64,000 nucleotides of DNA, from contig CM049306.1 in assembly GCA_026874595.1 (NCBI GenBank), positions 7,189,519 through 7,253,518 of the forward strand, read 5' to 3'. Positions 3,217 through 57,400 of this stretch are shown piece by piece. Every line of letters starts with the position of its first letter. The stretch's first letter is position 1. The position numbers were made by a program, and so were the translations under genes. This DNA is from Sipunculus nudus (Eukaryota > Annelida > Sipuncula > Golfingiida > Sipunculidae). The notes beneath the pieces are model-generated. The model worked only from the letters and a program-made list of their open reading frames with translations. It ran no database searches and was not told where the DNA came from.

Positions 3217-4983
3217 CACAGCAGTAAGCATGCAGCATACTTCTACCACAGCAGTAAGCATGCAGCATACTTCTACCACAGCAGTTAGCATGCAGCATAC
3301 TTCTACCACAGCAGTAAGCATGCAGCATACTTTTACCACAGCAGTAAGCATGTAGCATACCTCTACCACAGCAGTAAGCATGCAGCATACTTCTACCACA
3401 GCAGTAAGCATGCAGCATACTTCTACCACAGCAGTAAGCATGCAGCATACTTCTACCACAGCAGTAAGCATGCTGCATACTTCTACCACAGCAGTAAGCA
3501 TGCAGCATACTTCTACCACATCAGTAAGCATGCTGCATACTTTTACCACAGCAGTAAGCATGTAGCATACTTCTACCACAGCAGTTAGCATGCAGCATAC
3601 TTCTACCACAGCAGTAAGCATGCAGCATACTTTTACCACAGCAGTAAGCATGTAGCATACCTCTACCACAGCAGTAAGCATGCAGCATACTTTTACCACA
3701 GCAGTAAGCATGTAGCATACCTCTACCACAGCAGTAAGCATGCAGCATACCTCTACCACAGCAGTAAGCATGCAGCATACTTCTACCACAGCAGTAAGCA
3801 TGCAGCATACTTCTACCACAGCAGTAAGCATGCAGCATACTTCTACCACAGCAGTAAGCATGCTGCATACTTTTACCACAGCAGTAAGCATGTAGCATAC
3901 TTATACCACAGCAGTTAGCATGCAGCATACTTCTACCACAGCAGTAAGCATGCAGCATACTTTTACCACAGCAGTAAGCATGTAGCATACCTCTACCACA
4001 GCAGTAAGCATGCAGCATACTTCTACCACAGCAGTAAGCATGCAGCATACTTCTACCACAGCAGTAAGCATGCAGCATACTTCTACCACAGCAGTAAGCA
4101 TGCAGCATACTTCTACCACAGCAGTAAGCATGCAGCATGCTTCTACAACAGCAGTAAGCATGCAGCATACTTCTACCACAGCAGTAAGCATGCAGCATAC
4201 TTCTACCACAGCAGTAAGCATGCAGCATACTTCTACCACAGCAGTAAGCATGCAGCATACTTCTACCACAGCAGTAAGCATGCAGCATACCTCTATCACA
4301 GCAGTAAGCATGCAGCATACCTCTATCACAGCAGTAAGCATGCAGCATACTTCTACCACAGCAGTAAGCATGCAGCATACTTCTACCACAGCAGTAAGCA
4401 TGCAGCATACCTCTATCACAGCAGTAAGCATGCAGCATACCTCTATCACAGCAGTAAGCATGCAGCATACCTCTATCACAGCAGTAAGCATGCAGCATAC
4501 CTCTATCACAGCAGTAAGCATGCAGCATACCTCTATCACAGCAGTAAGCATGCAGCATACCTCTATCACAGCAGTAAGCATGCAGCATACCTCTACCACA
4601 GCAGTAAGCATGCAGCATACCTCTATCACAGCAGTAAGCATGCAGCATACCTCTATCACAGCAGTAAGCATGCAGCATACCTCTATCACAGCAGTAAGCA
4701 TGCAGCATACCTCTACCACAGCAGTAAGCATGCAGCATACCTCTATCATAGCAGTAAGCATGCAGCATACCTCTACCACAGCAGTAAGCATGCAGCATAC
4801 CTCTACCACAGCAGTAAGCATGCAGCATACCTCTATCACAGCAGTAAGCATGCAGCATACCTCTACCACAGCAGTAAGCATGCAGCATACCTCTATCACA
4901 GCAGTAAGCATGCAGCATACCTCTATCACAGCAGTAAGCATGCAGCATACCTCTATCACAGCAGTAAGCATGCAGTATGCTTC
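3217..4983. repeat. 30-bp minisatellite, about 59 copies
   Basis: An exact 30-bp period runs without length change for about 1.77 kb. The unit contains AGCAGTAAGCATGCAGCATA followed by a variable block (TTCTACCAC, TTTTACCAC, CTCTACCAC or CTCTATCAC). Because 30 is a multiple of 3, any frame free of stops stays open, which gives long false frames on both strands: decapeptide repeats starting MQHTSTTAVS on + and MLHAYCCGRS or MLTAVVEVCC on -. Variants are not randomly placed: TTCTACCAC and TTTTACCAC dominate the left part, while CTCTATCAC dominates from about 4291 on, as expected from local amplification. I regard it as non-coding tandem DNA. Confidence 0.97.
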
Positions 4984-5099
4984 TCTGTGTTCTCATGTGG
5001 TGTGTCACTCTTTAGCCCTCAGCCTTAGAGGATTAAGGGCTATTGTCATCACCTAAGCCATATGTTTGTCCAGCCGTCCATCCATCCAGCGTTTGTTAA

Positions 5100-13228: not shown

Positions 13229-15938
13229 TCATGAATGAATAGAATTTTATTCTGAAATAAAAGGCCTCAGGCCCATGGTTCCACAAAGAGCATGTGTTAA
13301 GAATCATAAAAATTCAACAATAACAAAATGTAACAGCATAACATGAACTAACAAAACATGCATTAAAACACAATCTTGTATGAAAATGTATGAAAAACCC
13401 ATGTTTGCAATATCTAAACACAAGCAGAAATTTTGTAATCACATATTTCATTTCATTTAGAGGTCATGAATAATAACAATAATAATACCAATTATAATAA
13501 TAATAATAATAAATAAGTGAACATATAAAACAAACAGTAGTACAATGCATCGATTGAAAACAGTTTATCTATTTCTTAATTGGCAGATGAATAAGTAAGT
13601 GAATAAATAGATTACTTAGATGATAGCTTTCAATTCATCATCTCTCCTGATAAAGGCATAGTGTACATAGGTTGCTAATTGTTTTATTGTGTGGGCATTA
13701 TTATCTGCCATCAGAGATGTAAATGTACTTAAATCATCAATATACTTGATTCTCAAGTCTGTATACAATGGGCATTTCATGATAAAATGATGCTCATCTT
13801 CAACAACAGCTTCCCCATATCTTAGACAATATTTACAAAACCTTTCATCCCATGGAGTATTACTATGCCTTCCTTTTTCTACTTCTAAATTATGTGATGA
13901 ACATCTTAGTCTTGAAAGACTTTCCTATAGTTAACATTCTGTAGAACTGTTAAATATTTTTCAGTGTTTAAAGTTAATTTAAAAGTTGAGTATGTGTTTA
14001 ATCGACGATTATTAGATATACTACTCGTCCAATCCTGCAATAAAGAATCATTTAATCTCTGTTTCAATACTGAGATAAATAATTTAACATCCCCTACATC
14101 TTGTTCAATCCAAACATAGCAAAATCCTTGCGAGAATAATATTTTCTTTATATTAGTTACCCAGTTCTGTTTTCCTGTTTCATCTAAGTGATATAATTTA
14201 TTATACAATTGCTTTGGTAATCTATTATTTGTCATATTTATCAATTTAGTCCAATAAGTTATAGCTCTTATTATATAATGAATCTTCAAGGGCAACCGCC
14301 TACATTCTCCTAGTACTGCAGCAACTGGTTTATTCATATTAACTTGGAGAATATACTTACAGAACTTGGTATGTACACTTTCAATATTGTCACATGTTTC
14401 AAAACCCCATAGTTCACTACCATAGCACAGAATTGGAAGGACCATCCTATCAAAAAGAAAGAAGGATTTACAAATAGATAGTTGCTTGTATTTTGAGATA
14501 AATTGTTTGATTATTATTAAAGCTTTGTTTGCTTGACAAATTAGATTCTGCTTCATTTTTGACCAATTTAGTAAGCTTGTAAATATGCCTCCCTGGTATT
14601 TATAATAATTGACAACTTCTAAGCGTTTACCTTTATAAAACCATTTTTCATATTTTCTCAAAGTTCCCCCATTTCTAAACACAACTATTTTAGTTTTTTC
14701 AACATTGACTTTCATTCCATAATTTTTACAAAATACTTCTAATTTATTAATCTTGGATTGTAATCTGCCTGCTGTGTCTGCAAAGCAGACCACATCATCA
14801 GCAAACATCAGCATTAAAAGATAAGATGATTCTGGACCTATATTTATACTGTCTTCCTCAGAATGTATCGTGAAATAAAATTTGTTCATAAAAAAGTAAA
14901 AAGTAAAGGACTGATCATACATCCTTGTCTTGCGCCAACATTGCATTTAAAATAACTAGTTATTCCTTCATTTGTTAAGACACAAGACTGTAATTTCGAC
15001 TACATTGACTTAAATTTTTTTCCTCTAATGCCATATTTATGAAGTATATAGAATAATAAGTCATGTTGAATACAGTCAAACGCCTTGGAAAAATCTATAA
15101 AAATTGCATAAAATTGTCCTTTCTTCCTTGATAAGTATATTTCAATAAGTGCCATGAGGGTATACATATTATCAATTGTGCTATATTTTCTTCTATATCC
15201 AGCTTGTTCTTCTATGAATTTATTGTGTTTTTCTGCCCAGGTAATTAATCTCTCATTAAGAACTTTAGTAAATAATTTATCTATAGTATTTAAAAGTGAG
15301 ATACCTCTATAATTATTTAGGTCTAAAGAAGAGCCCTTCTTGTGTAATGGGAACAAAATTGCTTTGGACCATTCAGTTAGGAAATGACCAGAAGTAAAAA
15401 CTTCATTAAATATCTTTTATAATACCTGACTTAAAACTGCTATATTGTCTTTCAAAAGTTCTACTGATATACCATCTGCTCCAGGTGTCTTGCCATTTTG
15501 CATAAGTTTTAACTGTTTTACTAATTCTTCTTTACTTATATAAAAATTCATTTCATCGTCCATATTTATATTGGAGGCATCTTCATGAAACTGATAGTTA
15601 TTTATATGATTCTTAACTCCTGGATTTACAGGGTTCATATTATCATTCAATAGTTTTTCAAAATAGATTAACCACTCCTCCCCAGAAATATTATTTTTAA
15701 TCTGTGTCCTTTTACAGATTTAATCTTTCTGAAAATTTCATTTGTAGAGTTGCATGCCATTAATTCAGTTACAGTTGAATTTGCTTTTTCCTTCTTTGAC
15801 TTTTTATACAAGATTTTAAATTCTGATTTTAACTGTTTATAATTTTCAAGGTCTTTCATAATATTTGTTTGTCAATATTCATTTAATGCATTGTATTTTC
15901 TCCTCTTTAATTCTGTACACTCCTGATTCCACCATAGT
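13229..15938 (-). pseudogene. 5'-truncated, disabled non-LTR (LINE) retrotransposon
   Basis: Read on the - strand, conserved reverse-transcriptase blocks appear in order: 'LHKKGSSLDLNNYRGISLL' (about 15300-15350), 'QAGYRRKYSTIDN', 'IDFSKAFDCI', 'GARQGCMISPLLF' (about 14890-14930), the catalytic FADD box in 'MFADDVVCFADTA' (about 14790), then 'NVEKTKIVVF'. A pre-RT stretch with 'NGKTPGADGISVELLK' lies at about 15480-15510. The endonuclease region is missing. The frame is broken by an in-frame TAA at 15417, a TAG at 15000-15002 and at least one frameshift near 14880, and the pre-RT fragment at 15668-15859 is in another frame. The 3' end (left) carries a short TTCA-type repeat instead of poly-A, as in CR1/L2-like clades. 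A 13-bp target duplication flanks it. The clade is not certain. Confidence 0.85.
13486..13512. repeat. AAT/ATA microsatellite
   Basis: A short run of AATAAT triplets lies inside the 3' region of the broken LINE. Confidence 0.8.
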
Positions 15939-29600: not shown

Positions 29601-32600
29601 ACTGAAGCTGAATTAATATACTCTGTTTGAATATGATTGTTCTTGTTGCTCAGTCACTAAGCAGAGACTTGGCCTTGGGTTAACTTATTTGCTGGACTAA
29701 TATTGAAATCATATTAACATATTTGTGTTTGATGGACTTTGATATCAATAAAACATATGTTCACTCATAATCAAAATTTTTATTTATTGTACTCATCAGG
29801 TGCACAAGTTGTACCAACAGTTACTACCCGTGCACGTGGTGTGTGAAGCGACATATATGTGTTAATAACCATGAACAGTGTGACAGAGATGACCGTCACG
29901 TCAATGGATTAAGGGTGAGTCTGCAACTTCATAATGTCGAACCTGTACATTGTAATAGTGATAATCTTTTACAGGTGTATTATATTACCTGGTGTTTTTC
30001 CTGTATTATCTTGTCACCCAATTAGCAGAAATCACACCAATGAAGTCTTTTCTTTTAAACTTTCCAAGATGTGTTGTTTATTTGCAAGTAATATGATTTC
30101 ATCTAAATCATTGATTTAAGGTCTTGTACCTTATTTTCAATAGTCTGGTATTTATAAACAGCTGATTTTATTAATCATTATAATTGTTGAAAGACCTTAT
30201 TCCTTCATTTTTAGCATGATATTGCTATCTAGGAATATTATTAGAAAGAACATGTGAAAGTTTGGTTGTGGTAAATTAGCTAGGAAAACCTGATGGTGAT
30301 CTTATGTCTGTATAATCAATCCAGACTGGTTTAGGCCAACTTTATACTAAACTTGGATTCTTGCGATGACTGGTTAATTGTGTGATAATTTTCTGACATG
30401 CTCCTTAATAATGTGATGATAATATTTACTTTTCAGGCTAATGGAGGTTCTGACAGCAGAGGACCAGAATATTGCCCCAAAATCAGCAGCGTGTCTTCAG
30501 AGATTCTGGTGCCATCGGGGACTAGTATGACAGTGTCAGTAGCGGCCAGTAACCTTCAGGTAATATGCAGCCAGCATACTAAACTTTGAGCAGTAGCTTG
30601 AAGTTACGTTTCTAACCATGTTTTTATCTAAACTAATTTCAGTCGTTGTACTGTATAAACTTAGAGTCCTTATACTGTCTTTTTCTTGATGTTATCAGGG
30701 CCCCACTTCAATAAGTAGTTGCCCAATCGTAATCACCCTGTCTGTCCATAAATTTTTATTATTTGTTTCCGGATGATAACTTCTGTTTCGATTGACATAT
30801 GGATTTCAAACTTAACATGTATACATGGCCCCTCACTAAAGCAAGAACCCTATTGAATTTGGGGTCATGAGCTCAAAGGTCAAGGTCACAGGCCCCTCAT
30901 CTTTAAAAAGATTGTAGATGAATATTAAGCAAAACATTTCATACCAGACCTTCCATCTTGCACATACAGCTCTCTTACCAATAGGGAATGATACCTTTCA
31001 ATATTGATGTCACAAGGTTAAGGTCACAGGAGCCATCTGTCTACAAATTGATTTCCAGATTATAACTCCTGTTTGGATTGACATATGGATTTCAAACTTG
31101 ACTGATGTATGGCCCACTACTAAAGTAAGGACCTCTAGATTTTTGGGGTCATGAGGTCAAAGGTCAAGGTCACAGGACCCACATTTTTAAAAAGTACTGA
31201 ATGCCTTTAAAGCCATATTTTTCATCCAAGACCCCCCCCCCCCATCTTGGAAATATAGCTCACTTGCTCACATGGAAAGATCTCTGCTGATTTTGGGGTC
31301 ACAAGGTCTAAGGTCAAGGTCACAGGGGCCATCTGTCCAAAAATTTTTTGTTTAATCATAACTACTGTTTTGATTTACTTTTTGCTTTCAAACTTTGTAT
31401 ATGGCCCAACACCCAAGGAAGAAGCCTTTTCATTTTGGGTTCATAAGGTTAAATGTCAAAGACACAGACCCTCTTCATTAAAAAGATTGTTCATGCATTT
31501 TCAGCCAAACTTTTCATCCCAAACCAACACCCTGCTTCAGTTACACTAGACAGTGTTGCCTAGCAACCACACTTGACCTTGCATTGGGTCTTCCAGCTAC
31601 CAGTTCAGCACACTCAGTGGCTCTGGGACCATGCTGCAGCTACACTGGACACTCCACATAACTCAGGGAGACAGTGCATTTTCACAAAAACTACTCAGGG
31701 AGACAATGCATTTTCACAAAAACTATTATATTTGTGGGGCACTACCTGACCTGTCAGTATTCTAGTTTTATGGCTGGTACCAGGAACAGTAAACTCCAGG
31801 TAATATTTGTATGGTGATGCACATTGATTATGCAGGATTTGCTGTGACAGTATATTATATTTTAATTGTATTGCCAGACATAGTCTGGAGATACTATGGT
31901 TTAGGCACGGTCGCGCCGCCGCCGCCGCAGAGATTTCTTTTGGACACAATAACTCAAAAAATATTTCACTGATCTTTACCAAACTTGGTATATGTATAGA
32001 TATGGGTGAGAGGACGACGCCTATTTAAAATGAGGTCATGACCTCAACTAGGAGAGTAACCTTGACCGTGAATAGGTTCAATTTTGGGGAAATCACACAA
32101 ATTCTTAAATATTTCAAGAAAACTTGCATGGATTGATCCCAAAATCAAGTTGATCGAAGATCATGGATAGGGTTGTCATGTTCCAGAAACTGGTGGCGCC
32201 ACCTATTATTCTTTACTTGTTTTCATGCCGTTTAATATCCCCAAAATTGCTACTTGACAGTACTGTGAGCATTATAAGTCAAAAACTAATGGACAGATTT
32301 TTTTTCATATTATGCAAATACATAGATATGGGTTATGGGATGATGTTTATTTAAATTTGGGTCATGACCTTTCCTATGAGAGTGGCCTTGACCTTGAATA
32401 TTGCCATATATGGTGAAAATCACACAAAATCATTAATTTCTCAATAAGGGATGCATGCATTGGTCCAAAAATCAACTTGACCGAAGATCTTGGATAGTAA
32501 TGTCATGTACCGGAAACAGGTGGCGCCACCTGTTATTCTTTTACTTGTTTTCGTGCCGTTTAATACCCCATCATTGCCACTTAACAGTACATTTATAACC

Positions 32601-35600
32601 TGTGAGCATTATAAGTCAAAAACTAATGGACAGATTTCTTTCATATTATGCATATACATAGACATGGGTTATGGGATGATATATATATAAATTGGGGTCA
32701 TGACCTTTCCTATTAGAGTGGCCTTGACCTTGAATATTGCCATATATGGTGAAAATTACACAAAATCATTAATATCTCAATAAGGGATGCATGCATTGGT
32801 CCAAAAATCAACATGTTCGAAGTCTTGCGGATCAATAACAGCATGAGCTGTGTCAGAAAACCTGTCCTGGACTTCACATACATTAGATTTAATCTGGAGA
32901 AACATTTAATTTCATCTGTGGTGCCAGAGACATATGGGTGGGAGTATCTTCTTGACCGTGATGGGTGGCTGCCATGTTTACCAGCTGAGCAAGGTCATGG
33001 CTGTGAAGAAGTTAGAAGTATTGGTCAGGGATGCCACCAGAAACACCCGGCAGAGCAGTGTATAAATATTTGTCATAGTGAGAATAAATAGGATGCTGTT
33101 ACACTGATAATGTATCAGATTTTACCAAACAGATGATGTTCCTAGGTAGAGCTGAAAGGTGAGAATGATAAACATCAATACAGGACAAAAGCTTATCTCA
33201 AGAAAACTTGATGTATGACAATCTTAACATGAGAGATGTGTGTTTGACTTTTTCACAGGATTTCCAGACAGAATTCAAATGCCTGTTCAGCATTGAGGGA
33301 ATTGTACACAGGACCCCGGCCAAGGCTTCAATCAGTAGAAATGGCATCGAGTGCCAGTCGTTTGAGGTGGGTTTGTAGTCTGTTGATATTTACAGAAGCA
33401 CTAAAGCACTAAGTAAGACTTCTTAAATCTTATGTGATGTACTGGAACCAAATTATTGGTTAGTAAAATACCCATGAGTGCATATTTCTGTATGATAAAT
33501 AGAATTTGAATAGTTCTCTCAATAAGATGTTTCAATAGTAATACCCTAGTTCATTCAAATTACTCTACAAAATTTCATTGAAATTGGTTCAGTCTTTTTG
33601 CATAATCCTAAAAAAAGCAAACTAATAAGAAAAATTGGTTGAAACAACCCTCCTTGGCAGAGGTAATTGGAATTTTATTACAAATTGTGTATTTTGTTTT
33701 ATTGAGAGTGATGACTACTGATGGGGACATTTGTTTGCAGTTTACTTACCAGGCAGGCAGCAAAATGCTGAACGTACCATATAAAGTGGTGTGGTTAAAC
33801 CGTAGCTCTAAAGAGCTGCCTCTTGATAACCCAGACAACATACAAGGTAGTGTTATGCAATAATTATATATCTATCATATCTGCATCAGTCACTACTTAA
33901 AGACATTCTGTGATCATAGTGTATTATAATGCTTCACCATTCTCAGGAGCAGTTTGGCTCAGTTTTGAAATGTTCCTTTGAATTTACATTTCAGTGTATG
34001 GGTGTACATTTCATGTCCAGTTTTCAGTTAAATCACATGAAGGTCATATTTCTATATTATATCTTTAAACAGGTTCAACTGCGCAGGTTAAACAAGTGTT
34101 ACAGTAAGATTAGTAAGATTAAATTATGGTTATATTATGATATAGTTACTATATTCAAATATATTTTGTTTTATGCATTTATTTTTTTATATTAAATTAT
34201 TTATCTAATGCATTATCAGTATGGATATAGAAACAAAATTAATATGTTCAACAGTTGTAAGTTATTTAAAAAATACAGAAACTGTCAATGTACATACAAC
34301 TTTTACATAGATATGAAGTGCTCTCCTATAATTTCATTAAAAAAATTTGTCCTGTTTTAATGTCTTGCAGTTAAAGTGTACAAGTGTGATGTCATGGCAC
34401 CAAACTGTGGCCAGTGTCTGAACATCGAACATAAGTTTAAGTGTGGTTGGTGTGAGAGATCGTGCAGCATACAGTCAAGTTGCCATAAACGATGGCTGGA
34501 TTACAACAGTGACTGCCCCAATCCTGAGATAACCAGGGTATGTTGTGCTGTCATAACAGCAATATGCACCTGTTAGGTTTACCAAGTAGAAATACAGAGC
34601 ACTGAATTTCAATAGCTTCCGCACAAGAAAATATTTCATAACCATTTTTGCTTAGTATTAAGAATAATTTGATTTTTAAGGAATTTCTAGAAATGTATGT
34701 GGAATCATTTTTTACTGCATTATATATTTTTATGGTTCCATTGTAAAAAGGATATGTTTAAGATTTATTGATATCATTATTAGGAACACAATAGATTACA
34801 ACATGGATATATAATTGATTCCATAGTTCATAGTGTAAAAGTATTAATTTTTTACATTGGTGTATTTGTCAGTATGAAAATAAGTCAGCTTACTGTCATC
34901 TTGCAGTTTTACCCGGTGTCTGGACCAGTGAAGGGCGGGACCACTGTTACTATTGAAGGGGTAAATCTGGGTAAGAGATTTGAGGAGATTGAACACGAGG
35001 TAGACATTGCTGGAATCAAGTGTATACCCATCAAGAACAAGTACATCAATGCCACCAGGTGAGTGATCAAGGAACTATTCTTATCATTTTAAATATGTTT
35101 ATGGTTGTATGGTTATAGATCATCAGAAAAACTTAAAGACACTGAAGTAATCAACAGAAACACTCCTGCAACCTTTTGACTTGAAATTTGTTTGCTGTCT
35201 TACTTGAAATATTGTCATAAGAGCATGAACACAGGTACTGGTATAGACTATAGCATTCTTAATATATGTGTATTAAATTTTTGTAAATGTTTGTTTTCAT
35301 TGCTGAGGCAAAGAATCTCATATTTAATTGTATCAGATAAAGGTATCAGAATTTAAACAATTTTTAAGTGTCATTATATCTTTAGTCATTTCAAGTAATA
35401 ACAAAACCCAAATCTTAATTTTGAAACTAATTCTGTTCTTTCAGAATTGTGTGTGTAACACAGGAGAGTTTTGAGGAAAAAGGAGGCTTTGTTAATGTGG
35501 TTGTTAATCGTCGGTACAGAGGAATATCCAAACAAAAGTTCAACTTTGTGGTATGTTCAGTTCACTTTTAAGTATGTAAAATTATACCATGAGAACCCTG

Positions 35601-38600
35601 CAAAGTTAATATATCGAAGGTTTGGCCAGAACTTTTAGACATGCATGTTAATAAAACATTCATAGACTGAAAATGTGTCACATTTGTCATATTCTTTGGC
35701 CTTGGCCATGCGTGCTTGCTCAGCAAAATTTGGCTCATCAATAAATATTTTGACAATTGTGATTTAAATATTTTATCAGTTTCAGTGGTGCATGAAAGCA
35801 GTTGAATACCCTGCAGTCTGACATAGAGCACTGTGTTTATAAATATTTGAAAGGTCCATGCAGTGGTTCATGGTTTTTGCAATTTTAGTAGATCAGATTG
35901 GGAAATTATACAATTTCATGGTATTATTATGAAAATGCTGTCATTTTAAGATAATAGTTATATCTTGGATAATTAGAAAATTGGCTGCATGCATTAACTA
36001 ATTGATCAGTGTACCGTTTTCAAGATACAATCAACAATTCTACATTAAATGGGGCATAAGATATAAAATTGATAAGATATACAACATAATGCTTGTAGTT
36101 TTGTATGCAGCAGTGCTAAAACTTTCAGTCCTAATAAATATCTGTATGTTTCAAAACTGTTATTGAGAGGAGAAAGCATATTTTTACATTGACAGGAGCC
36201 TGGTATTGTCAGTATACACCCATATTTTTACATTGACAGGAGCCTGGTATTGTCAGTTTACATCCATATATTTACATTGACAGGAGCCTAGTATTGTATG
36301 TTTACATCCATATTTTTACAATGATAGGAGCCTGGTATTGTGTAGTATATACCTATATTTTTTACATTGACAGGAGCCTGGTATTGTCAGTTTACATCCA
36401 TATTTTTACATTGACAAGAGCCTGGTATTGTGTAGTATACATCCAAATATTAACATTGACAGGAGCCTGGTATTGCCAGTATACACTCATATTTTTACAT
36501 TGTCAACAGCCTGGCATTGTCAGTATACTTCCATATATTTACATTAACAGGATCCTGGTATTGTCAGTATACACCCTTATTTTTACATTGACAGGAGCCT
36601 GATATTGTCAGTATACATCCAGTGAAGGGTCCTCAATCTGGAGGAACACGTGTAACGCTGACTGGACAGAATCTGAACACAGGGTCATCTGCCAAGGTTA
36701 ACGTACTTGGTGAAGAATGCCCCATATATGAGTAAGTGATTCTCAAGAAAAAAAAATGATATACTGACAGCTTTAACAGACCAGATGATGAGACCTTGTG
36801 CAAATGAAAATGTTCATAACTTCCCTCTATCTATCTGTCCATCACCTGTTCTTAACATCCCTCTATCCATCTGTCCATCACCTGTTCATAACATCCCTCT
36901 ATCCATCTGTCCATCACCTGTTCATAACTTTCCTCCATCCATCTGTCCATCACCTGTTTGTCCCTCTCTGTCTGTCCTGTCATATAAAGCACCTGTTGTT
37001 CCCATTTCACCAGGTTTAAGACCAGCTGTATTGTATGTGATGGTGATATTATGACTAAAAGTGACGTCTTTCATGTTGATAGTTTCACAGTTTTGTATCA
37101 TATCATGGAGAGTTTAATGTGATGTAGCAAGTCTGTAGCAAATCACAAAACAGGCCCTAAGATGTGTTAATGTCACTTATTATAAAGAATTCCTATGACC
37201 GGTTTGTAGAAATTAAATGAATTTTTTTTATTGCCTACTTATTCTGGTTTTAACTGTTTGTGAAGATATCACCAAATATATGCATATTTACACAATATTT
37301 ATGTAGTAATGTAAAAGGTTAAAAGTCTCTCAATAGTCTCTCGTAATTCAGAAGAGTTATAAACTATTTGGATCAATTTTTCAGGCAGAGTGACACCACC
37401 GTAGTGTTCAGTACTAACAGTGTGGCAGACGCACCGATATATGCACCACCCAGTCTACAGATTGACAAAGCAGCGATCAAGGCACCCGCTGACTTCCAGT
37501 ATACACTAGACCCTACCATCAGTAGTGTCCACCCTAAAAGTGCTATATTGAGGTTTGTTTTAGAGCTATTTTATATAAACATTTTTTTTATCTATTGAAA
37601 GCATGTTGTAAATGTAAAATAGATAAAAAAGTTTTATAATATAAATTTCTTTGTTGTAAATATACATGTACAAAAATTCATAGCCAAAGGGATTAAATGT
37701 GGTCATCATTTCTAGTTTGACTTAATTCAGTTTTATATTTAAGACTAAATGAAATAGTCAGTTATAAAAAAGAAATGATTAGTCACTTGTTTAATTGAAT
37801 AAGGATACACCAGCTTTTTGTACAAGGCCTGTTGCTGTCGTTTCAGTGGGGGAAGACCAATCACTGTTACAGGCAGCTATCTGGACTCCGTGCAGGAACC
37901 AAAGCTCTACATGAAAGTCAATAATACTGATGTGACTGGGGTAAGTTTACTTGTTCAATCACTGAAGTCAATTAAAACTTATTCTTGTAAGTGTAAAATG
38001 TGTTCATGTAGTGGTGACTTTATCTACAGTGTCATAATGTCAGATTGTATGATTAGTCCATCACTATCTAATTATTAGTTTCAAGAAATTAAAGGTATTT
38101 ATGACTCTGATTTGCATAAACAGAACAAAACAGCTGAGTACCTGATTCATTTTCTGTCAGATTCAGAAAAAAAAATGGAAATACCAAAGATCAATTTAGA
38201 ATAAATCTGCTGCATCTTACAGATAATTTACCTAACACTTACCCAAACCCTTAAAGTAAAAGTAGCACAGTGTATATGTCAGCACTTTGATGGTCTGTGT
38301 TATTTACACAATTTTAATTTGTTTGGTTAAATATGAGGAAAGTTGAGGAAACCCAAAAGAATTATAGTGGTCAGACATTTATGGGAACAAAAGTTATATG
38401 GTAAGTTAGTCACTATAATTATGTAAAAAAAAAATTAATAATCTGTCACAGAAAATAAACCAAAACTATTTCTAATGGTAAACTACTTATAGAGATTTTT
38501 CATCATGAATAAACATGAATACTCTCTTCTATGAATAAATTTGAATGTATTATATTTTCCAGGACTGTGATGTGCAAGACTCCCACCACATGGTTTGTGA

Positions 38601-41600: not shown

Positions 41601-44600
41601 AATAACCTTCACAAAGTATATATACATTGTTATATAAACTAATTATATCAAATACTGTATGTGCTAAAAGTATAAACTATTATTAATGGAACATCAAACA
41701 AGATTAAATTAATGTTAATTACGGGCAGATTTACGGGTAACATACAAGATCTGTTCTTTATAATATCAATCTTTCACCTTTTTGACTTGCCTTTGATGAA
41801 TGAGCCTATTATTCATGAAGGTTTTAGTTTTGTGAATATTTCCCTTTCATGAATAACGACAACAAAAAGACAACCACAGTTATGAATGCAGAGTCCTATA
41901 AAAAAAGAATGTTTTGTCAACTAAAAGTGAATACAGTTTTTATTTTCTCTGTGTTGTGCACAGCCAAGAAGGGAAGACAAGATTGAACATTTAGAAATGA
42001 TGGAATTATAATGTTACCAAACTTGACATCATTTCTATAGATTTGCACAATATAAAAAAGTAGGTTGTCATACCCGTGGCATAACCTTCTCAGAGTTATT
42101 CATCAGTGTATGTTTTGTGAACAATAATAATTATTGTATCCCCAGACAAAGTCGGGGGATACTATGTTTTCATACCGGTCCCGCCGCCCCCGCCGCATAT
42201 AAATCTTGTTGATTTAAATTGGGGTCATGACCTTTCCTATGATAGTGGCCTTGACCTTGAATATTGCCATATATGGTGAAAATCACACACCTCTTATGAT
42301 ATCTCCAGTGTTGATAGCCATATGGATTTCAAACATGACTTATGTATGGCCCACCACTAAAGTAAAAAGCCATAGGTTCTAGGGTCATGAGGTCAAAGGT
42401 CAAGGTCACTGGACTGGCATTTTAAAAGATACTGTGGATGCATTTTAAGCCAAACTTTCATCCTAGGTCTTCCATCTTGAATATATAGCTCACTTGCCAA
42501 TAGTGGATGATCCATATCAATTTTTGGGTCACAAGGTCAAAGGTCAAGGCCACAGGAGCTATCTGTCCAAAAATTAGTTTCTGGATGATAATTCCTGCTT
42601 TTATTGATGTATTGATTTCAAACTTGACTTATATATGTCCCATTGAAAAAGCAAGACTCCAATTGATTTTGGGGTCATGAGGTCAAAGGTCAAGGTTACA
42701 GGACACATCTTTAAAAAGATTGTGGATGCATTTTTAGCCAAACATTTCATCTCAGACCTTTCATCTTGCACATATAGTTCACCTGCCAAGAGATGAAGAA
42801 CCCTATCAATTTTGAGGTCACAAGGTCAAAGGTGAAGGTCACAGGAGCCATCTGTCCAAAAATTAGTTCCTGGATGATAATTCCTTCTTTTATTGATGTA
42901 TGGATTTCAAACTTGACTTGTATATGTCCCATCCGAAAAGCAAGACCCAAATTGATTTTGGGGTCATGAGGTCTAAGGTCAAGGTCACAGGACATCTTTT
43001 CATCTCAGATCTTTCATCTTGCACATATAGTTCACCTACCAAGAGAGGAAGAACCCTATCAATTTTGAGGTCACAAGGACAAAGGTGAAGGTCACAGGAC
43101 ACATCTTTAAAAAGATCAAGGTCACAGGACCAACATCTTCAACAAGATTGTTGATTGTTAGATGGAAGAAACAATCAATATGCCAAGTGTCAGTATATGC
43201 TGCTAAAAATGGGGGTCTATTCTTGAAGGGGGGGGGGCCTACTATGTCTGGGGATACTCTGGCACCTGCGGTGCCAAGAAATGTCTAGTTTAATTGATAT
43301 TGACAGCTTTGTTATGAAATATTTAGAGCTGTAAGTTTATGATACAGTTGATTTTTCCAGCATAAGTATTGTGATAGTATTGAAGGGCACCTTAGTATAG
43401 ACGTGATACTTGGTATTTCAGCATTTGCAGAGCTTCAGACGGAGATGACAGAATTAACTGAGCAGTCTGGTCCTCTCGGGATTCCATTCAGGGATTACCG
43501 CAACTTCTGTATGCGTGTTCTTTATCCGACGGAGAAGGAAGATCATCCAGTCACCAGGAGGCTTGAGGTAAGACATGCACCACCGCTTACATCATTGTAA
43601 ATAAAACATATCATGTAAATGAAACAAACCGGGAAAAAGCTACTATGGCTGTGCTCATACTTAATCCCAAGCTATTTGTACCATGATGTATATTGTACTA
43701 ATTAAAATGTCAATAAAATAACCACTGTATTAGACTGTTATATTTCTGACTACGTAAAAAAGTTGATTTTTGATTTGTAACATAAAAGTGATATATTTCA
43801 AAATTGCCCTTTAAGTTGTAATATTGGAGTCATACAAGTTATTGAAGAAAACTTTTTTTCAAAACTTTTGCTTGTAAGACTGAAATCAATATCTTGTAAA
43901 GTACCTAATGAATGCTTGGAATATGGGACCACCACAGTTACCTCATAATAATCTTCAGATTAGATTATAAACAGAATATAATGCTATGGTCAACTTAAGT
44001 ATAACAGGTATACATTTACAAAGAAAATGGGTAAATATGTTTCCCAAACTGTTAACAATGTGGTGACATTTGGTTTATTTCATCATTGAAGATGCAAATG
44101 CAAACAAGTTTTAAATGCACAGTCAGCTACAGTGTGACTGGCCGTTACCTCGAACATCCTGTTTTCATCTTGTGAACGTTTGTTCAGGTTGACCCAGCTA
44201 GGATGGAGAGCGTGTCCCGGGGGCTGAAGATGTTTGACCAGCATCTCTTACAGAACAAGACCTTCCTCCTCACGTTTATCCGGACCCTGGAGAGCAGCCA
44301 TACCTTCTCCATGAGAGAGAAAGTCAACCTTGCCTCGCTCGTATCTGTCTGTCTGCAGGGCCGCATGGAGTACTTCACAGAGTAAGAGTTCTACTTCTAA
44401 AAAGTACATACTCCGCATGCTTCAGTGACCATTCAGTAGTAGTAAAGGACTTGTTTACAAAAATGGCTGCAGGTGGCAGCACCCATCAGAGAATTCCATG
44501 TCTGTTTTTATCCAAGGAAACACTGATTGGTGATAACATATAAGAATTATCTTACTATCCAAATGTGTGAATATTGTTTCAGTTTGATATAATTATGTAG

Positions 44601-47600: not shown

Positions 47601-50600
47601 ATTTTATCAGGCATGTCAACAGTGCTAGTAGTAGAAGAAAGCATATTTTTACCTGATAGATTCAATTCAACTGCTTCTTGGTTTATCACTTATAAAATAT
47701 CATATAACTGGTTAAACTCAAGTTTAGGGAATTTTAACACCTTTTCTCATACCATGTAATGATGCACTGAGATTGCTGTTTTCATAATGACATGTACACA
47801 CACAGCCTGTATATGACATTTGACATTTTATTCACAGGTACATGACGGAGCGATGATGGCGCTGGTGCCCCGTCAGGTGCATTCCATATACAACACACAG
47901 ACCATATCATCTTCCAGAAATGCTCTATATTATGATGGTGAGTACTTGGGTATACCTGGTAAAATACATATGATGCAATGATGAGAGACAAGAGTCAGAA
48001 ACTACAGAGATCAGTATCCATGACTTAATCTGATAAATTATAGTTTCAGCTGAGAAAAGACTCAAGTAGGTGATAAGCAGTATATAAACACTTCTGGAAT
48101 TAACATAGAATATTATTATAAACTCTTTGAAATAGTTTAAAACAGTCTTGTCCACTTTGTTATATATATTACAGATTTCCATGAGGAGACACTTAGTCAT
48201 AATAAATTTATGCATGTGTCACTGTTTTGATCTGTCACATCTCTTGTAGCAGTTAAGAGAAATGCAAAATACATTACTTTTATGCTGAATAAAACATTTT
48301 GCTCTCTCTCTCTCAGAAAATAAAGAAAGGTAACAGTGATCTCTTGTTATCCAGCATTGCAGGCTGAGAATGTTATGTATGTTTTGCCTGTATTGTTTTA
48401 CAGATTCATTTTCAACATATGTAAAAATGCAGGGGAGCCCCTCAAGCACCCTGTCACCCAACTCCAACTATGACATGGAGACTGGAGATATGAAATATTT
48501 CCACTTGGTATGTACAACCCTGTTAATATCAGTGAAGTCAGTCAGATATTACATGTATCAGTATTATCTTACAATCTGTTTGCTGAATTATACAAGCATG
48601 TTCAGATTTCCTCATGAATATACATGAATTATTTTTCTTTTTACAACTTTATAATGTATGTCTGGATGTAAGCAGGAACTGGATATATGTGGTCACTGAA
48701 TATGGTATGCCCCATAGACTTAATGCATATTGTAATATTTGATGGACAGCCCACAAAGCAAACTACTTGTCCTAATTACCGTAGATCCGCATTTTGCCGC
48801 CGCGGCTATAAAATAAGACTTACAGCTGAAAACCCTGACTAATATTTCTCGACAAGGGATGCGGCTATAAAACGCAGGTTAGGCTAAATTCAAACATGTA
48901 CAAGAGACTCGACGGCCCGCCGAGGCGCAATGGGTGATAATAGGCTGAGGAAGGAGGAATGGAATACTGAGAACGTATATTTAATGATACTGAATATTTT
49001 TATATTAATTTTATTCATTGTTAATTTTATAAAATGTAAAATTGATATTAAACAGGCTTATATGTATTATTAAATTTTTTTGAGTCAGTCATAAACCACA
49101 GCCATTTTCACGCAATGATTAATAAAAGATCGATATTCACTCGCCAAATTATGCACTCTAACCAGACTAACGGTTGTACCTATATTTGAGTATGGCTGCA
49201 ATATCGGTAAAACATTATTTTAAGATATTTCTTGAACATATCATTTCTTTTAAAATAAACTGTAAAACAAAAGATAACCAAAGACCATACGTTCTTCGGC
49301 AATTAATCCTGCGTTCACGTTCAGACTCTTCTTGGTTCATCACATTGTCAATAGGTGGCGCTCAGAGGTCATAACCTCACCAGCTTGTTCCGTAATTGTA
49401 TCCCCAGACAAAGTCGGGGGATACTATGTTTTCATACCGGTCCCGCTGCCGCCGCCGCCGCATATAAATCTTGTTAGCGCGATAACCCAAAAAATATTTC
49501 ACGGAACTTTACCAAACTTGGTATATGTATAGATATGGGTAAGAGGACGATGCCTATTTAAAATGAGGTCATGACCTTTACTAGGAGAGTGTCCTTGACC
49601 TTGAATAGGTCCAATTTTGGGGAAAATCACACAAATTCTTTAATATCTCAAGAAATCTTGCATGGATTTATCCCAAAATCAAGTTGATGGAAGATCATGG
49701 ATAGGGTTGTCATGTTCCAGAAACTGGTGGCGCCACCTATTATTCTTTACTTGTTTTCATGCCGTTTAATACTCCCAAAATTGCCACCTTACAGTACTGT
49801 GAGCATTATAAGTCAAAAACTAATGGACAGATTTCTTTTATATTATGCATATACATAGGTATGGGTTATGGGATGATGGTTATTTAAATTGGGGTCATGA
49901 CCTTTCCTATGTTAGTGGCCTTGACCTTGAATATTGCCATTTATGGTGAAAATCACACTCCTCTTATGATATCTCCAGTGTTGATAGCCATATAGATTTC
50001 AAACATGACTTATGTATGGCCCACCACTAAAGTAAGAACCCTATAGGTTCTAGGGTCATGAGGTCAAAGGTCAAGGTCACTGGACTGGCATTTTAAAATA
50101 TACTGTGGATGCATTTTAAGCCAAACTTTCATCCCAGGTCTTCCATCTTGAATATATAGCTCACTTGCCAATAGTGGATGATCCATAGAAATTTTGGGGT
50201 CACAAGGTCAAAGGTCAAGGCCACAGGAGCTATCTGTCCAAAAATTAGTTTCTGGATGATAATTCCTTCTTTTATTGATGTATGGATTTCAAACTTGACT
50301 TGTATTTGACCCATTGGAAAAGCAAGACCTGAATAGATTTTGGGGTCATGAGGTCAAAGGTCAAGGTCACAGGAAACCTCTTTAAAAAGGTTGTGGATGC
50401 AATTTCAGCCAAAAAATTCATCTGAGATCTTTCATCTTGCACATATAGTTCACCTGCCAAGAGTGGAAGACCCCTATCAATTGTGAGGTCACAAGGTCAA
50501 AGGTGAAGGTCACAGGAGCCATCTGTCCAAAAATTAGTTTCTGGATGATAATTCCTGCTTTTATTGATGTATGGATTTCAAACTTGACTTGTATTTGACC

Positions 50601-53600
50601 CATTGGAAAAGCAAGACCTGAATTGATTTTGGGGTCATGAGGTCAAAGGTCAAGGTCACAGGACACATCTTTAAAAAGGTTGTGGATGCAATTTCAGCCA
50701 AAAAATTCATCTGAGATCTTTCATCTTGCACATACAGTTCACCTGCCAAAAGATGAAGAACCCTATCAATTTTGAGGTCACAAGGTCAAAGGTGAAGGTC
50801 ACAGGAGCCATCTGTCCAAAAATTAGTTTCTGGATGATAATTCCTGCTTTTATTGATGTATGGATTTCAAACTTGACTTGTATATGTCCCATTCGAAAAG
50901 CAAGACCAAAATTGATTTTGGGGTCATGAGGTCAAAGGTCAAGGTCACAGGACACATCTTTAAAAAGATGTGGATGCATTTTCAGCCAAACATTTCATGA
51001 TCATTCATCTTGCACATATAGTTCACCTGCCAAGAGAGGAAGAACCCTATCAATTTTGAGGTCACAAGGTCAAAGGTGAAGGTCACAGGAGCCATCTGTC
51101 CAAAAATTAGTTTCTGGATGATAATTCCTTCTTTATTTATGTTTAGTTTTCAAACTTGACTTGTATACTGTGGTTGTCTTTTTGTTCGCGAGGGTTTTAA
51201 TTTCGCGATATTCGCGAATGGGAAATAATCGCGAAAATGAAACCATCGGGAATAATCGGCCAATTGAGAATGTCCTTCTTATTCAGTGTAATCAATACTT
51301 GTATGGTAATAGGTTAAAACAGTGAGAATTTTTTTAATAAATTACATCCTTGCAGGTATAGGGAAATGTAAGCCTTAAATTTGAACTAAACCACCTATGC
51401 TGTGTGTGCGGGCCTATCATTATATAAGAAAATGATACAAACTCATGACTTATTCTCATTTTATAAAACACTCAGGTATATGGCTTTGCCAAAGATTTGA
51501 TTAGGTTATGGTGAGATCGCAAAATGAACCTTCGCAAAACATTAAAAATGGAAAAATCGCGAAATTTCAGCCTCGCGAATATGAAGCCAACCACAGTATG
51601 TCCCATTGGAAAAGCAAGACCAAAATTGATTTTGGGGTCATGAGGTCAAAGGTCAAGGTCACAGGATACATCTTTAAAAAGGTTGTGGATGCAATTTCAG
51701 CCAAAAAATTCATCTGAGATCTTTCATTTTGCACATATAGTTCATCTGCCAAGAGTGGAAGACCCCTATCAATTTTGAGGTCACAAGGTCAAAGGTGAAG
51801 GTCACAGGAGCCATCTGTCCAAAAATTAGTTTCTGGATGATAATTCCTCCTTTTATTGATGTATGGATTTCAAACTTGACTTGTATTTGACCCATTGGAA
51901 AAGCAAGACCCAAATTGATTTTGGGGTCATGAGGCCAAAGGTCAAGGTCACAGGAAACCTCTTTATAAAGGTTGTGGATGCAATTTCAGCCAAAAAATTC
52001 ATCTGAGATCTTTCATCTTGCACATATAGTTCACCTGCCAAGAGTGGAAGACCCCTATCAATTTTGAGGTCACAAGGCCAAAGGTGAAGGTCACAGGAGC
52101 CATCTGTCCAAAAATTAGTTTCTGGATGATAATTCCTGCTTTTATTGATGTATTGATTTCAAACTTGACTTGTATATGTCCCATTGGAAAAGCAAGACCC
52201 AAATTGATTTTGGGGTCATGAGGTCAAAGGTCAAGGTCACAGGACACATCTTTAAAAAGATGTGGATGCATTTTCAGCCAAACATTTCATCTCAGATCTT
52301 TCATCTTGCACATATAGTTCTCCTGCCAAGAGAGGAAGAACACTATCAATTGTGAGGTCACAAGGTCAAAGGTGAAGGTCACAGGAGCCACCTGTCAAAA
52401 AAAATTAGTTTCTGGATGATAATTCCTTCTTTATTGATGTATAGATTTCAAACTTGACTTGCATATGTCCCATTGGAAAAGCAAGACCCAAATTGATTTT
52501 GGGGTCATGAGGTCAAAGGTCAAGGTCACAGGACACATCTTTAAAACAATCAAGATCACAGGACCAACATCTTCAACAAGATTGTGGATTGTTAGATGGA
52601 AGAAACAATAAATATGCCAAGTGTCAGTATATGCTGCCAAAATTGGGGTTCTGTTCTTAGGGGGGGGGGGGGCCTACTATGTCTGGGGATACTCTGGCAC
52701 CTGCGGTGCCAAGAAATGTCTAGTCTTTAAATATGGCACGTTTTGCTAGCACACGGTTCGGGCACCAGTGTGCATATATTATGATCAGCAGGACCCTGGG
52801 AGTAAGCGTAAAGGCTCAACGCGGGATTCGCTTATTCAAAGGTTTTGTCAAGGTTGTTAATTGACCGACATTATATAGAGTGTAATTAAAAGCCATCACA
52901 AAGAGTACCATTGGCTTTCATGTCCCATTGAAGTTTAATTAGCCAGGGCAAAGGCGCAAGGTACCCCAAGGCCCGCTAGTTCCGTAATCATTTTATGTGG
53001 CATGTTTTGCCGGTTGAAGGTTCGGACACCATTTTGCATATATTATGATCAGCACAACCCGAGGTGTTCTGGCAATATGATCACCGACGCGGGTGTCGTT
53101 TATTTAAATGTTTTGTTGTTAAATGACCGACGATGTATAATGTCTAAATAATATTTAAATTACTGTCGTCCCATACTATGCGTTGATGTCCCATTGTACT
53201 TTAATTAGCCAAGTTAAAGGCGCAAGATTCTCCGGCATTCAGTGATGTGTCAAATTAATTTCGTGGCCCTACTAGGATTCGTCTTGGATGAGTCATCATA
53301 AACCGAACAAATTTTCATCTATTCTAATCGGGTAGATCAGGCGGTTTAACCAATTAATTAAATTAATTAATTAGCAAAGCCAAGCAACATACACAGTTGC
53401 AACTGTTTCCCAAAACTCTTATGCCTGACCGCATATCAGCATACCGCAGCAAACTCTGTGTCCCTAGCTGCAGCCTAGCGTTTAAGAAAAGAACCTTTTT
53501 TCGTTGTGTTCCCATACACCACCCTGCAATGGAACGTGGTGAGAATGTGGTGCGGCCATTAAGTAAGGTTTTGGGAATTTTTTACTCCAGCGAAGGAGCC

Positions 53601-54394
53601 TTCCAGATATTTTACGAACATGGGGTGCGGCCATTAGACGATGTGCGGTGGCAAAACGCGGATCTACAGTATATGAAATCTAGTTGAACGGGTAGTAGCA
53701 ATTTACACATTATTAAAATATATTATTAGAGTAAGATATTTATATATAAATCAAAAGACTTTCTGGGGGAATTTGTTAATAATTTTTGGGTCAAATAGTA
53801 ATGAGCGTGTAAGAACAGAGCAATATTTTATCATTTCAGGTGAAACCACACGACTCAGAGGCTCCGAGAGAGGGTGACAGGGGGAGTAAGATGGTGTCAG
53901 AAATTTACCTGACCAGGTTACTGGCAACAAAGGTGTGTACAACAAACAATTAAAAAGCATCCAATATGGGGACGCAAACCTTGAGCAGAAGATAGTGATA
54001 TGGAGTTGTATTTAACCCTGTGTTATTCCTGTGAAAAATACCCTTGTAAATCGTGGAATTGCTGTACTTTGCTATAAACATAATGAATAACAACCATACC
54101 CCCCCCCCCCCCACCATGATGTATGTCGGTTTAGGGACACCTTTCAGGGAAAAGGCACAAGGTGGAGGTCATTGTCACCTGTGATGCTAGGATGACCCTC
54201 GACAGATGGCTGTCTGGTCACATGCAACAAGTGCAAGTGTAAAAATGTGCTATAAAAACCCATAAAACACTCATTCTAGGGTTATTTACGCTTTGATTTA
54301 CACTAAAATTGAATTTCATCAACACTTTCACAACACCAGCCTATAATATGATAAATATCAATAACGTGATATACTCTCTCCAGATATCGTCCAG

Positions 54395-54425
<31 letters not shown>

Positions 54426-57400
54426 GAATCGAGTGAAAACAATAACCCTCGCTCTGCAAAGGGTTAATAAACCTGGCACATCATCGGGGGTACATGCATC
54501 GGGTGTTTTGTTTATTATAGTACACCGTTCATGCCGATACATTCCTCTTGGTTTAGTCCACTTGCTTCAGAAATTGCTCTTGAAGCTGTGTTATCAGATA
54601 TGAGATTGGCAGGTTTTGTTGCATCCACTGCCATGGACTTAGAGTAAGATATTGGAGATTGGTCTGTAGATGTAGTAGACTTATTCCTATCCTTGTAGAA
54701 GATGTAAGATGTTGGCATGGTAACTCTTGGACTACACAAACTTTGTAATAACATACCCACTGTCTTTGATGGGAATTATTTGGATGAAAGTGTAGCCATG
54801 TTTGAAATCTGGAAAACTGTCAAACCCTGTATGAGCAAGATAAAAAGTACAGGTATAAAGTAAGCAATGGACATGAAGAAAACCAGAGGATATACCTGTC
54901 AGAAAAATGTTTGAATCAGTTGAGGTTTACAGTATTAGTTCATTGTTTGAGCATTCAGCAGATCCCGCTTGGCATATTTTTGTTTACAGGGCACATTTCA
55001 ACAGGGTCCACTTGGTGTATTGTTGTTTACATTGCACATTACCGCAGGTTTCACTTGGTGTATTGTTTTTTTACAGTGCACATTTCAACAGGTTACATTG
55101 GGTTTATTGTTGTTTAAAGGGCAGATTATAGCAGGTAACCCTTCATTTATTGTTGTTTACAGTGCACATTTCAACAGGTTACATTGGGTGTATTGTTGTT
55201 TACAGGGCACATTTCAACAGGTTACATTGGGTGTATTGTTGTTTACAGGGCACATTTCAACAGGTTACATTGGGTGTATTGTTGTTTACATTGCACATTA
55301 CAACAGGTTACATTGGGTGTATTGCTGTTTACAGGGCACATTTCAACAGGTTACATTGGGTGTATTGTTGTTTAAAGGGCAGATTATAGCAGGTAACCCT
55401 TGGTTTATTGTTGTTTACAGGGCACATTACAGCAGTACGTGGATGATCTGTTTGAGACCATCTTCTCTATAAACCACCGGGGCAGTGCATTACCTCTGGC
55501 CATTAAGTACATGTTTGACTTTCTTGATGACCAGGCTCTTAACCACAATATCCAGGACCCTGAGGTGGTTCATACGTGGAAATCAAACAGGTGAGTAATT
55601 GATTTTATTTCCCAGAGAGGTCTGATATAATCTAGTGGATAAAACTTTCCATTGAATTTGAAGTTGACAACCTCTTAATTGTTTGAATCTTATTTTTGCC
55701 TTAGAAATAGTAAAATGGTTTGATGCCACAATAACTTCTTTGAATTTTCCCATTCTTATCTGGACTTTCACTATGAAAACATGAAAAGTTTAAATGTTTG
55801 ATGATTTCAGTGAATATAAAATATTGTACATGAGTTGAACATTCATTTTATACCAGATTTGTGTTCAGTCTAGGAGCCGTACATAGAAAACCAGGTGTAT
55901 GGCTTAATATGGTTTGAAAATGCAAAGAGAGAAAAGGTTTTGTCTCTGATGCAAAAATAGAAATTGTTTAACATGTATTACTGATCTGTTTATTTTCATT
56001 TCAGTTTACCGCTGAGATTCTGGGTTAATGTGATAAAGAACCCTGACTTTGTGTTTGATGTGCACAAATCTCCGATTGTGGATGTGTGTTTGTCTGTGGT
56101 AGCTCAGATATTCATGGACAGCTGTTCACTCGCTGAGCACCGACTGGGTAAGGACTCACCGTCCAGCAAGTTGTTGTATGCCAAGGACATTCCCAAATAC
56201 AAGCAGTGGGTGGACAGGTCAGTATATTTTAATACGTTAACAACCCATGATCTATTTTTTAGAATGCAAAATACTTGTGTTGATATTGGAGAGGCATTTA
56301 TTTTGAACATTATCAAGATCATATGTTTTTTAGGACAGTTTTATTTCCCACAGTCAATTTAATTGTGTTGTACTTTTGAATAATAATGATTTCTTTAAAT
56401 GCTGAAAGTTTCAATATCACATGCACAAAGAGTAATGGAAATAATTTCTGTATTGTTATGGAAAATATTGCATTCTGCACAAGACAGGTTACCACCGATC
56501 ACATCTTATAATATGATTATTGTATATGTGCTTAAATTTTTACAGGTATTACCAAGACATAAAAATGATGCCACAGATCAGTGACCAGGATATGAATGCA
56601 ATACTAGCAGAAGAGTCAAGAGTAAGTGCTTTGCTATTACACATCTTGATTACATTTCAACAGCTTTTTCAGTCTTTAAGGTGACATGATGTTCATATTA
56701 TACCATAACATAACTTCTGTCATAGTGTTACTAGGCATAACCATTTAGTTTATAAGAATAATAAGATATAAATTAAGAAAGAACAGCTTTTTGCATGTAA
56801 ACATGACATTGCCTCTTCACGCCATGACATTGCCAATGCTTTTCACATTATAGCTATTTCATATTATAATAAACACCTTTTTACCGTGGTATGGGTTTTA
56901 ACAATTATAGTCATTGTATCCGCCAAAACGAAGTTTTGCGGATACTATGTTTTTGACCGGGTTCCGCCGCCGCCGCCGCCGCCGCCGCGTTCGTTTCCGG
57001 AGAACTCCTCTGAGACTACTGGACAGATTTTTCCGAAACTTACACAAATTATCGGGTCACATGTGAACTGGTGCCTAACCAAGTGACCTTGACCTCTGAC
57101 CTTTCGTCTCTGCCCAGCGTCCGTTTGTGCGTCTGTTTACACACATAAACCCATATATCTCGGGAACCGTTTGACCGATCCGGAAAATTTTTTTACACAA
57201 ATGTAGCCCTGGGATAGCTTTATAACATACACAACAAAAGGTGGCGCCACCTGCAACCATATTTGCACAGTGTCCATCTGTTCATCTGCCTGGGGTTAAA
57301 ATCACTCATATCTCTGCAGTGGTTTGACTAATTCACCTAAAATTTGGCATGCATATACATCCTAGATAGCTTTCTCAATTTTATGACAGGTGGCGCCACC

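Follow-up and report, generated by a model that had tools for sequence, protein, structure and literature searches.

Mirages are minisatellite-like duplications of an intron-exon boundary. As far as the amphioxus report is represented here (PMC3087553), they were named in that animal, where they occur in Adh3 and in the globin genes BflGb6 and BflGb9. According to the same source, the repeated units measure 150-160 bp in BflGb6, 157 bp in BflGb9 and 10-72 bp in Adh3, many but not all of them keep the AG or GT of the splice site, and both boundaries of an exon can be affected. Units within a cluster evolve in concert, with those at the boundary excluded, and RT-PCR of BflGb6 and Adh3 suggests that splicing is undisturbed (PMC3087553). 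De Grassi and Ciccarelli described internal tandem repeats that lie at exon-intron boundaries within segmental duplications of the human genome (part of PMC2812944), and models in which minisatellites are born from short direct repeats go back to Haber and Louis (1998) and Taylor and Breden (2000), as described in a section of PMC3389668. In the literature searched, mirages in the sense of minisatellites at introns came up in the amphioxus paper only, and no report from another animal was recognised from titles and the beginnings of abstracts, although this does not prove their absence. The array in a plexin gene of Sipunculus nudus that is the subject of this study had been presented in the original prediction as belonging to no named system; in view of the amphioxus mirages (PMC3087553, in the part consulted) that statement was wrong.

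Two Tandem Arrays at Exon Edges of a Plexin Gene

The window analysed is a stretch of 64,000 nucleotides (assembly GCA_026874595.1, contig CM049306.1, positions 7,189,519 to 7,253,518), and positions below refer to it. All features of the plexin gene given here lie on its forward strand. The 43-bp array (54962-55435) starts in an intron of 1488 nt (53933-55420) and terminates within the plexin GAP-domain exon (55421-55590; Pfam Plexin_cytopl). The exon upstream of this intron (53840-53932) ends with ...LLATK in phase 0, and the GAP exon opens in phase 0 with GGC ACA TTA CAG CAG (GTLQQ); its closest PDB matches are plexin A3 (E 7e-67) and plexin A1 (E 2e-66). Each unit consists of 28 nt of intron tail and 15 nt of exon head (GGCACATTACAGCAG in the GAP exon), and the last of the eleven units is the real exon edge itself, which reads TTTACAG followed by GGCACATTACAGCAG and encodes GTLQQ directly after ...LLATK.

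The predicted number of eleven units at nearly exact 43-bp spacing was confirmed both by TRF (54975-55435, period 43, 10.7 copies, 84% matches, score 598) and by the positions of the eleven acceptor heptamers (54983-55414), which are 43 bp apart except for one gap of 44 bp. The accompanying claim that the units contain TTTACAG holds for seven of the eleven; two have TTTACAT, in which the AG is lost, and two (units 4 and 10) have TTTAAAG, and the AG is kept in eight of the ten decoy units (6 TTTACAG, 2 TTTAAAG). Two variant unit types had also been thought to be interleaved. Variants do exist, but the type with TTTAAAGGGCAGATTATAGC is present in only 2 of the 11 units, again unit 4 (55092-55134) and unit 10 (55350-55392), and falls within a lag-6 pattern: the mean identity of units six positions apart is 87% (5 pairs, among them 2/8 with 86%, 4/10 with 98% and 5/11 with 88%) versus 77-85% at lags 1-5, 7, and 8. 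A six-unit block of 258 bp is secondarily duplicated, which accounts for the interleaved variants. Units 6, 7, and 9 are 98-100% identical to one another, whereas unit 1 shares 67-81% identity with units 2-9, the end units having diverged. Across the genome, a 701-bp query found no match other than itself, in a search that skips very common words and scores the best candidates only, and within the window the 43-bp unit reaches a top score of 27 elsewhere versus 157 within the array.

Compared with dinucleotide shuffles, the RNA of the array (54962-55461, forward strand) folds more stably (z -3.2), none of 100 shuffles reaching so low a value, and the GTAACC variant is complementary to the GGTTAC present in other units. 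This folding could be a by-product of repetition, but it could also reflect a structural role, which would count against the simple mirage explanation.

The same gene contains a first array of ten 44-bp copies (array 1; 36177-36621), which lies at the acceptor of an IPT/TIG exon (36595-36731), repeats the head of that exon and covers 27 nt of it. The claim that one gene carries the same intron/exon-edge architecture twice, built from unrelated unit sequences, was thereby borne out: the units of the two arrays show no resemblance (local score 16, matched by 42 of 500 shuffles), and the array-1 unit scores at most 28 outside its array within the window. A common origin of the two arrays was considered and is, on this score, unsupported. 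Elsewhere in the gene, at 47937-48433, the plexin exons on either side are out of phase with one another, and either a small exon or a different splice site was probably missed there; exon e48.4, whose phase does not join, was left out of the counts but retained in the splice weight matrices.

Decoy Acceptors and the Choice of the Splice Site

When scored with a weight matrix built from 25 other acceptors of the plexin gene, five of the decoy acceptors equal or exceed the real one (10.3-11.0 vs. 10.0). The first bases after these sites are 54990 (11.0), 55077 (11.0), 55206 (10.9), 55249 (10.9), and 55335 (10.3), the last strong decoy. The decoy of unit 5 at 55163 scores 8.0, and six decoys are within the top 2% of intronic AGs by score. 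Of the gene's other acceptors, 16 score at least 7, and at these at most two upstream AGs within 500 nt match the score of the real site, whereas weaker real acceptors are preceded by up to 12 such AGs.

Reading frame separates the real site from its copies. From each of the eight alternative unit acceptors with an AG, translation runs into a stop within the coding region tested, whereas 209 codons stay open from the real one. Use of the unit 4 acceptor would bring a TAG into the exon frame, and splicing at 55163 would add 258 nt in frame but with a stop among them; among the nine unit acceptors only 55421 retains the conserved protein. Array 1 behaves likewise, as all seven alternative acceptor coordinates with an AG lead to a stop, the eighth having no AG. 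Frame and conservation together indicate that 55421, the last acceptor, is probably the one used. The real unit (unit 11, 55393-55435) combines GTAAC at -24, a candidate branch site, with TTTACAG and the exon head. GTAAC at this position is limited to the real unit and to unit 5 (55135-55177), which have the GTAACCC intron variant in common, and consequently most units may be incomplete acceptors.

We suppose that the array is tolerated because the copy adjoining the exon retains a pyrimidine tract, an AG and a candidate branch site of its own. By exon definition, the spliceosome would pick this last copy, since the exon body and its donor lie only downstream of it, and enhancers in the exon body may also help this choice, while wrong acceptor choices would be lost as mRNAs with premature stops.

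Exon-Edge Arrays Elsewhere in the Genome

The assembly (1.43 Gb, 153 contigs) was surveyed at 60 loci around the best exons encoding the myosin head (30 of 75 matches) and the dynein AAA_6 domain (30 of 93 matches), which were picked by match score and not by repeats. These loci correspond to 41 blocks (157 kb) with 114 exons, of which 94 were family-matched and 20 came from tblastn, two of the 22 tblastn hits being left out as they lay inside arrays. The blocks hold 15 distinct arrays (period at least 20, at least 2.5 copies), and seven of these, one of them putative, cross an exon edge by eye. The suggested recurrence of such arrays at exon edges is thus borne out, and it extends to acceptors and donors alike. 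The three acceptor arrays have units of 82 bp (L010), 53 bp (L055), and 31 bp (L021) and the donor arrays units of 77 bp (L034/L061), 55 bp (L044/L052), 36 bp (L027, 27.8 copies), and 21 bp (the putative L026, 52.8 copies), so that the seven span 21-82 bp and 5.8 to 52.8 copies. Their coding side matches the myosin head or AAA_6 (Pfam) in six cases, in L021 below the curated cut-off, and is without a Pfam match in L026. L055, where the overlap is too short for the rule, and L021 and L026, whose exons are outside the independent annotation, are mirages by eye and do not enter the statistics on single-locus arrays given below. The sampled rate, 7 of ∼232 edges or 3%, is close to that in the plexin gene (2 of 52), and two arrays in one gene are therefore about as expected. 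Exon-edge arrays seem unexpectedly frequent in this genome, as judged from a small sample of two gene families.

Two further features of these loci deserve mention. In L021 the unit contains a donor-like ACT/GTAAGG behind its acceptor, and at G000:C2:44848559-44852248 (reverse strand) several matches in succession fall on nearly the same part of the myosin P-loop region (profile about 109-204), suggesting an array of alternative exons.

The original prediction would fall if arrays were no commoner at exon edges than at random intronic positions, and the answer depends on the unit of counting: per array the single-locus arrays lie above random, with all arrays together marginal, while per position there is no enrichment. 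The per-position test comprised 149 of 188 edges, i.e., those with a splice score >3 and enough room. Only 2 of these 149 lie in strong local repeats (28/36 matches) versus 76 of 781 intronic controls, so that edges are in fact poorer in repeats, and at the loosest threshold the numbers are 4 of 149 and 105 of 781. Within the window, arrays cover 20% of intronic positions, compared with 2 of the 26 acceptors and none of the 26 donors. The per-array test used random placement sparing exons and independently annotated exons; 6 of all 23 arrays (myosin/dynein and plexin) cross an edge versus 2.9 expected (P 0.055). For single-locus arrays this becomes 6 of 13 versus 1.8 expected (P 0.0038), with 0 of 10 for arrays of dispersed families. 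However, the single-locus subset was post hoc, listed by eye after the arrays had been inspected and then confirmed by blastn, and for this reason the excess is suggestive only.

Other rule sets were applied as well, some of which show no excess. With the independent annotation (114 exons), 4 of the 15 block arrays cross an edge (P 0.18). For the window only (15 arrays with a period of at least 10, 27 exons), two arrays cross an acceptor versus 0.37 expected (P 0.054), with 0.88 expected for any edge (P 0.22); without exon e48.4 the expectations are 0.35 (P 0.0445) and 0.81 (P 0.19), respectively. Under a loose rule, 4 of 15 block arrays (P 0.33), 2 of 8 arrays of the plexin gene (P 0.33) and 6 of 23 for both (P 0.20) cross an edge, and under a strict rule 3 of 15 (P 0.26), 2 of 8 (P 0.13), and 5 of 23 (P 0.08). 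Lower probabilities were obtained when three extra exons were added that had been noticed because of their arrays: 7 block arrays under the loose rule (P 0.03) and, under the strict rule, 6 of 15 (P 0.009) or, with plexin, 8 of 23 (P 0.0015).

The window also holds other repeats. Tandem arrays at 31996-32827, 42321-42994, 50053-51166, and 51597-52546 also match other parts of the window and a further locus block, the last three having a common 146/289-bp unit rich in AAGGTCAAGGTCA. At 3217-4984 there are 59 copies of a 30-bp unit with CACAGCAG, and both strands contain long open frames; at 13909-15416 (reverse strand) two open frames match reverse transcriptase (Pfam RVT_1), apparently representing a broken element.

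Origin and Maintenance of the Arrays

The GTLQ exon start is identical in the aligned solved plexins A1, A3, and B1, which identifies the exon edge as the source and the intronic units as copies. Directly 5′ of unit 1, CAGCAG (54956-54961) occurs in register with the end of the last unit, where CAGCAG forms exon positions +10 to +15 (55430-55435); the match comprises 6 of 6 bases. In the inferred ancestor these two copies would be one unit apart, the layout expected from slippage between short direct repeats, and they are therefore the candidate founding pair. The array may have been founded by slippage or microhomology-mediated duplication between the intronic and the exonic CAGCAG, and its subsequent growth would be ordinary minisatellite turnover. 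The in-register match at the ends of array 1 is only 2 bp (CA), and direct repeats of several bases are thus not general. A decayed twelfth unit 5′ of the 43-bp array was considered and rejected, as its local score of 16 was matched by 403 of 2000 random stretches. We consider it very probable that the plexin array is a mirage, i.e., a minisatellite confined to one locus that arose when the intron-exon boundary was duplicated in tandem, and most likely it is mutational in origin and tolerated.

Other explanations have to be weighed against this. If a pre-existing intronic minisatellite had lent its 3′ end as acceptor and exon start (exonisation), the array would terminate inside an exon, as it does, but the start of the GAP exon is common to the solved plexins and array 1 likewise adjoins a conserved IPT exon, which makes this course of events highly improbable. 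Just as improbable is an assembly artefact of a repeat, given that the units differ among themselves, the end units have diverged, and arrays of other unit lengths in other genes have the same architecture. The units could also be spliced as 15-nt microexons, each with an acceptor, GGCACATTTCAACAG (GTFQQ) and the donor CAG/GTTACA, which would supply optional insertions of five residues before GTLQQ. Their length is in frame at phase 0 and in most units the exon-like stretch is followed by a GT, yet these donors score 0.4-1.1, a level met by 30-36% of intronic GTs, and two units encode a stop after GRL. Donor-like GTs throughout the 43-bp array score at most 1.5, whereas 26 of the 27 real donors of the gene reach at least 4.0, which argues against microexons and decoy exons; with such donors no internal acceptor is paired with a usable donor, as a cassette exon would be. 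The 28-nt gap between successive units is, moreover, below the minimum intron length. The microexon reading was rejected on donor strength, and we regard it as extremely unlikely.

The original prediction offered two causes for the recurrence of these arrays, selection for decoy acceptors and a mutational mechanism acting at exon edges. Selected decoys would titrate splicing factors or divert splicing to stop-containing mRNA and so tune plexin output in the manner of a poison or decoy exon. The high scores of six decoys and the stops behind all eight alternative acceptors would fit this, as would the full conservation of the decoy dinucleotide in four of the nine arrays (L010, L055, L021, and L027), although in these 16 to 42 other adjacent pairs per unit are likewise fully conserved. 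However, over the ten decoy units of the 43-bp array the AG columns are conserved in 10/10 and 8/10 versus a mean of 8.9 over the unit, the AG being lost in two and the heptamer altered to TTTAAAG in two more, and 25 of 42 adjacent column pairs are conserved at least as well as the AG pair. Over the nine arrays, with the putative L026 included, the decoy splice dinucleotides are 0.95 conserved versus 0.93 for whole units, exceeding the mean of the unit in four arrays and falling short of it in the other five. As the decoy sites are thus hardly better conserved than the units, selection for decoy acceptors is unsupported, and the weak donors also make decoy exons in the usual sense unlikely; we consider regulation by selected decoys quite improbable. 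A mutational process aimed at exon edges, whether linked to splicing or transcription or favouring splice sites, which makes arrays genome-wide beyond the chance birth of minisatellites, finds some support in the single-locus excess, the lack of crossings by dispersed-family arrays and the fact that acceptors and donors are both affected. The marginal result for all 23 arrays, the scarcity of repeats at edges per position and the drawing up of the subset by eye speak against it, and we are inclined to doubt such a process without dismissing it. The same tentative standing applies to the wider proposition of a lineage-wide class, at ∼3% of sampled edges, that arises by edge-preferring mutation at acceptors and donors and leaves thousands of genes with decoys ignored by the spliceosome.

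Significance and Comparison with Known Systems

Mirages are already known as a kind, and what is unexpected here is their apparent frequency in the genome. Each array amounts to a natural competition experiment, in which several near-identical acceptors follow one another and the frame is preserved only by the one nearest the exon. In a genome rich in such arrays the rules of exon definition, branch-site choice and enhancer action would become measurable at scale. Such a genome would also offer material from which introns could be gained when boundaries are duplicated, following the model set out in the part of PMC3087553 considered here. For annotation they are a warning, as gene finders can choose a decoy edge.

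Like splicing decoy exons, as far as the case of OGT is described, the plexin array puts extra splice sites inside an intron, but decoy exons also have a usable donor whereas the donors of the array are weak. SF3B1 is another case of a splicing decoy exon. Like the plexin array, the human boundary repeats (PMC2812944, as excerpted) are minisatellites placed where exon meets intron, with a bearing on gene structure; they differ among recent paralogues and make exons longer or may give rise to introns, whereas the plexin exon and its frame are unchanged. The CAGCAG at both array ends, one unit apart in the inferred ancestor, agrees with the short-direct-repeat models as summarised in PMC3389668; in array 1 the corresponding match is only 2 bp. 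From the amphioxus mirages the plexin array differs in its eleven 43-bp units and in occurring in another animal, whose genome of 1.43 Gb contrasts with one of about 0.5 Gb in amphioxus and is represented here by one assembly. It resembles them, however, in spanning the boundary with units that join the intron end to part of the exon, in keeping the AG in most (8 of 10) of its decoy units, and in combining homogenised inner units (6, 7, and 9) with a diverged unit 1.
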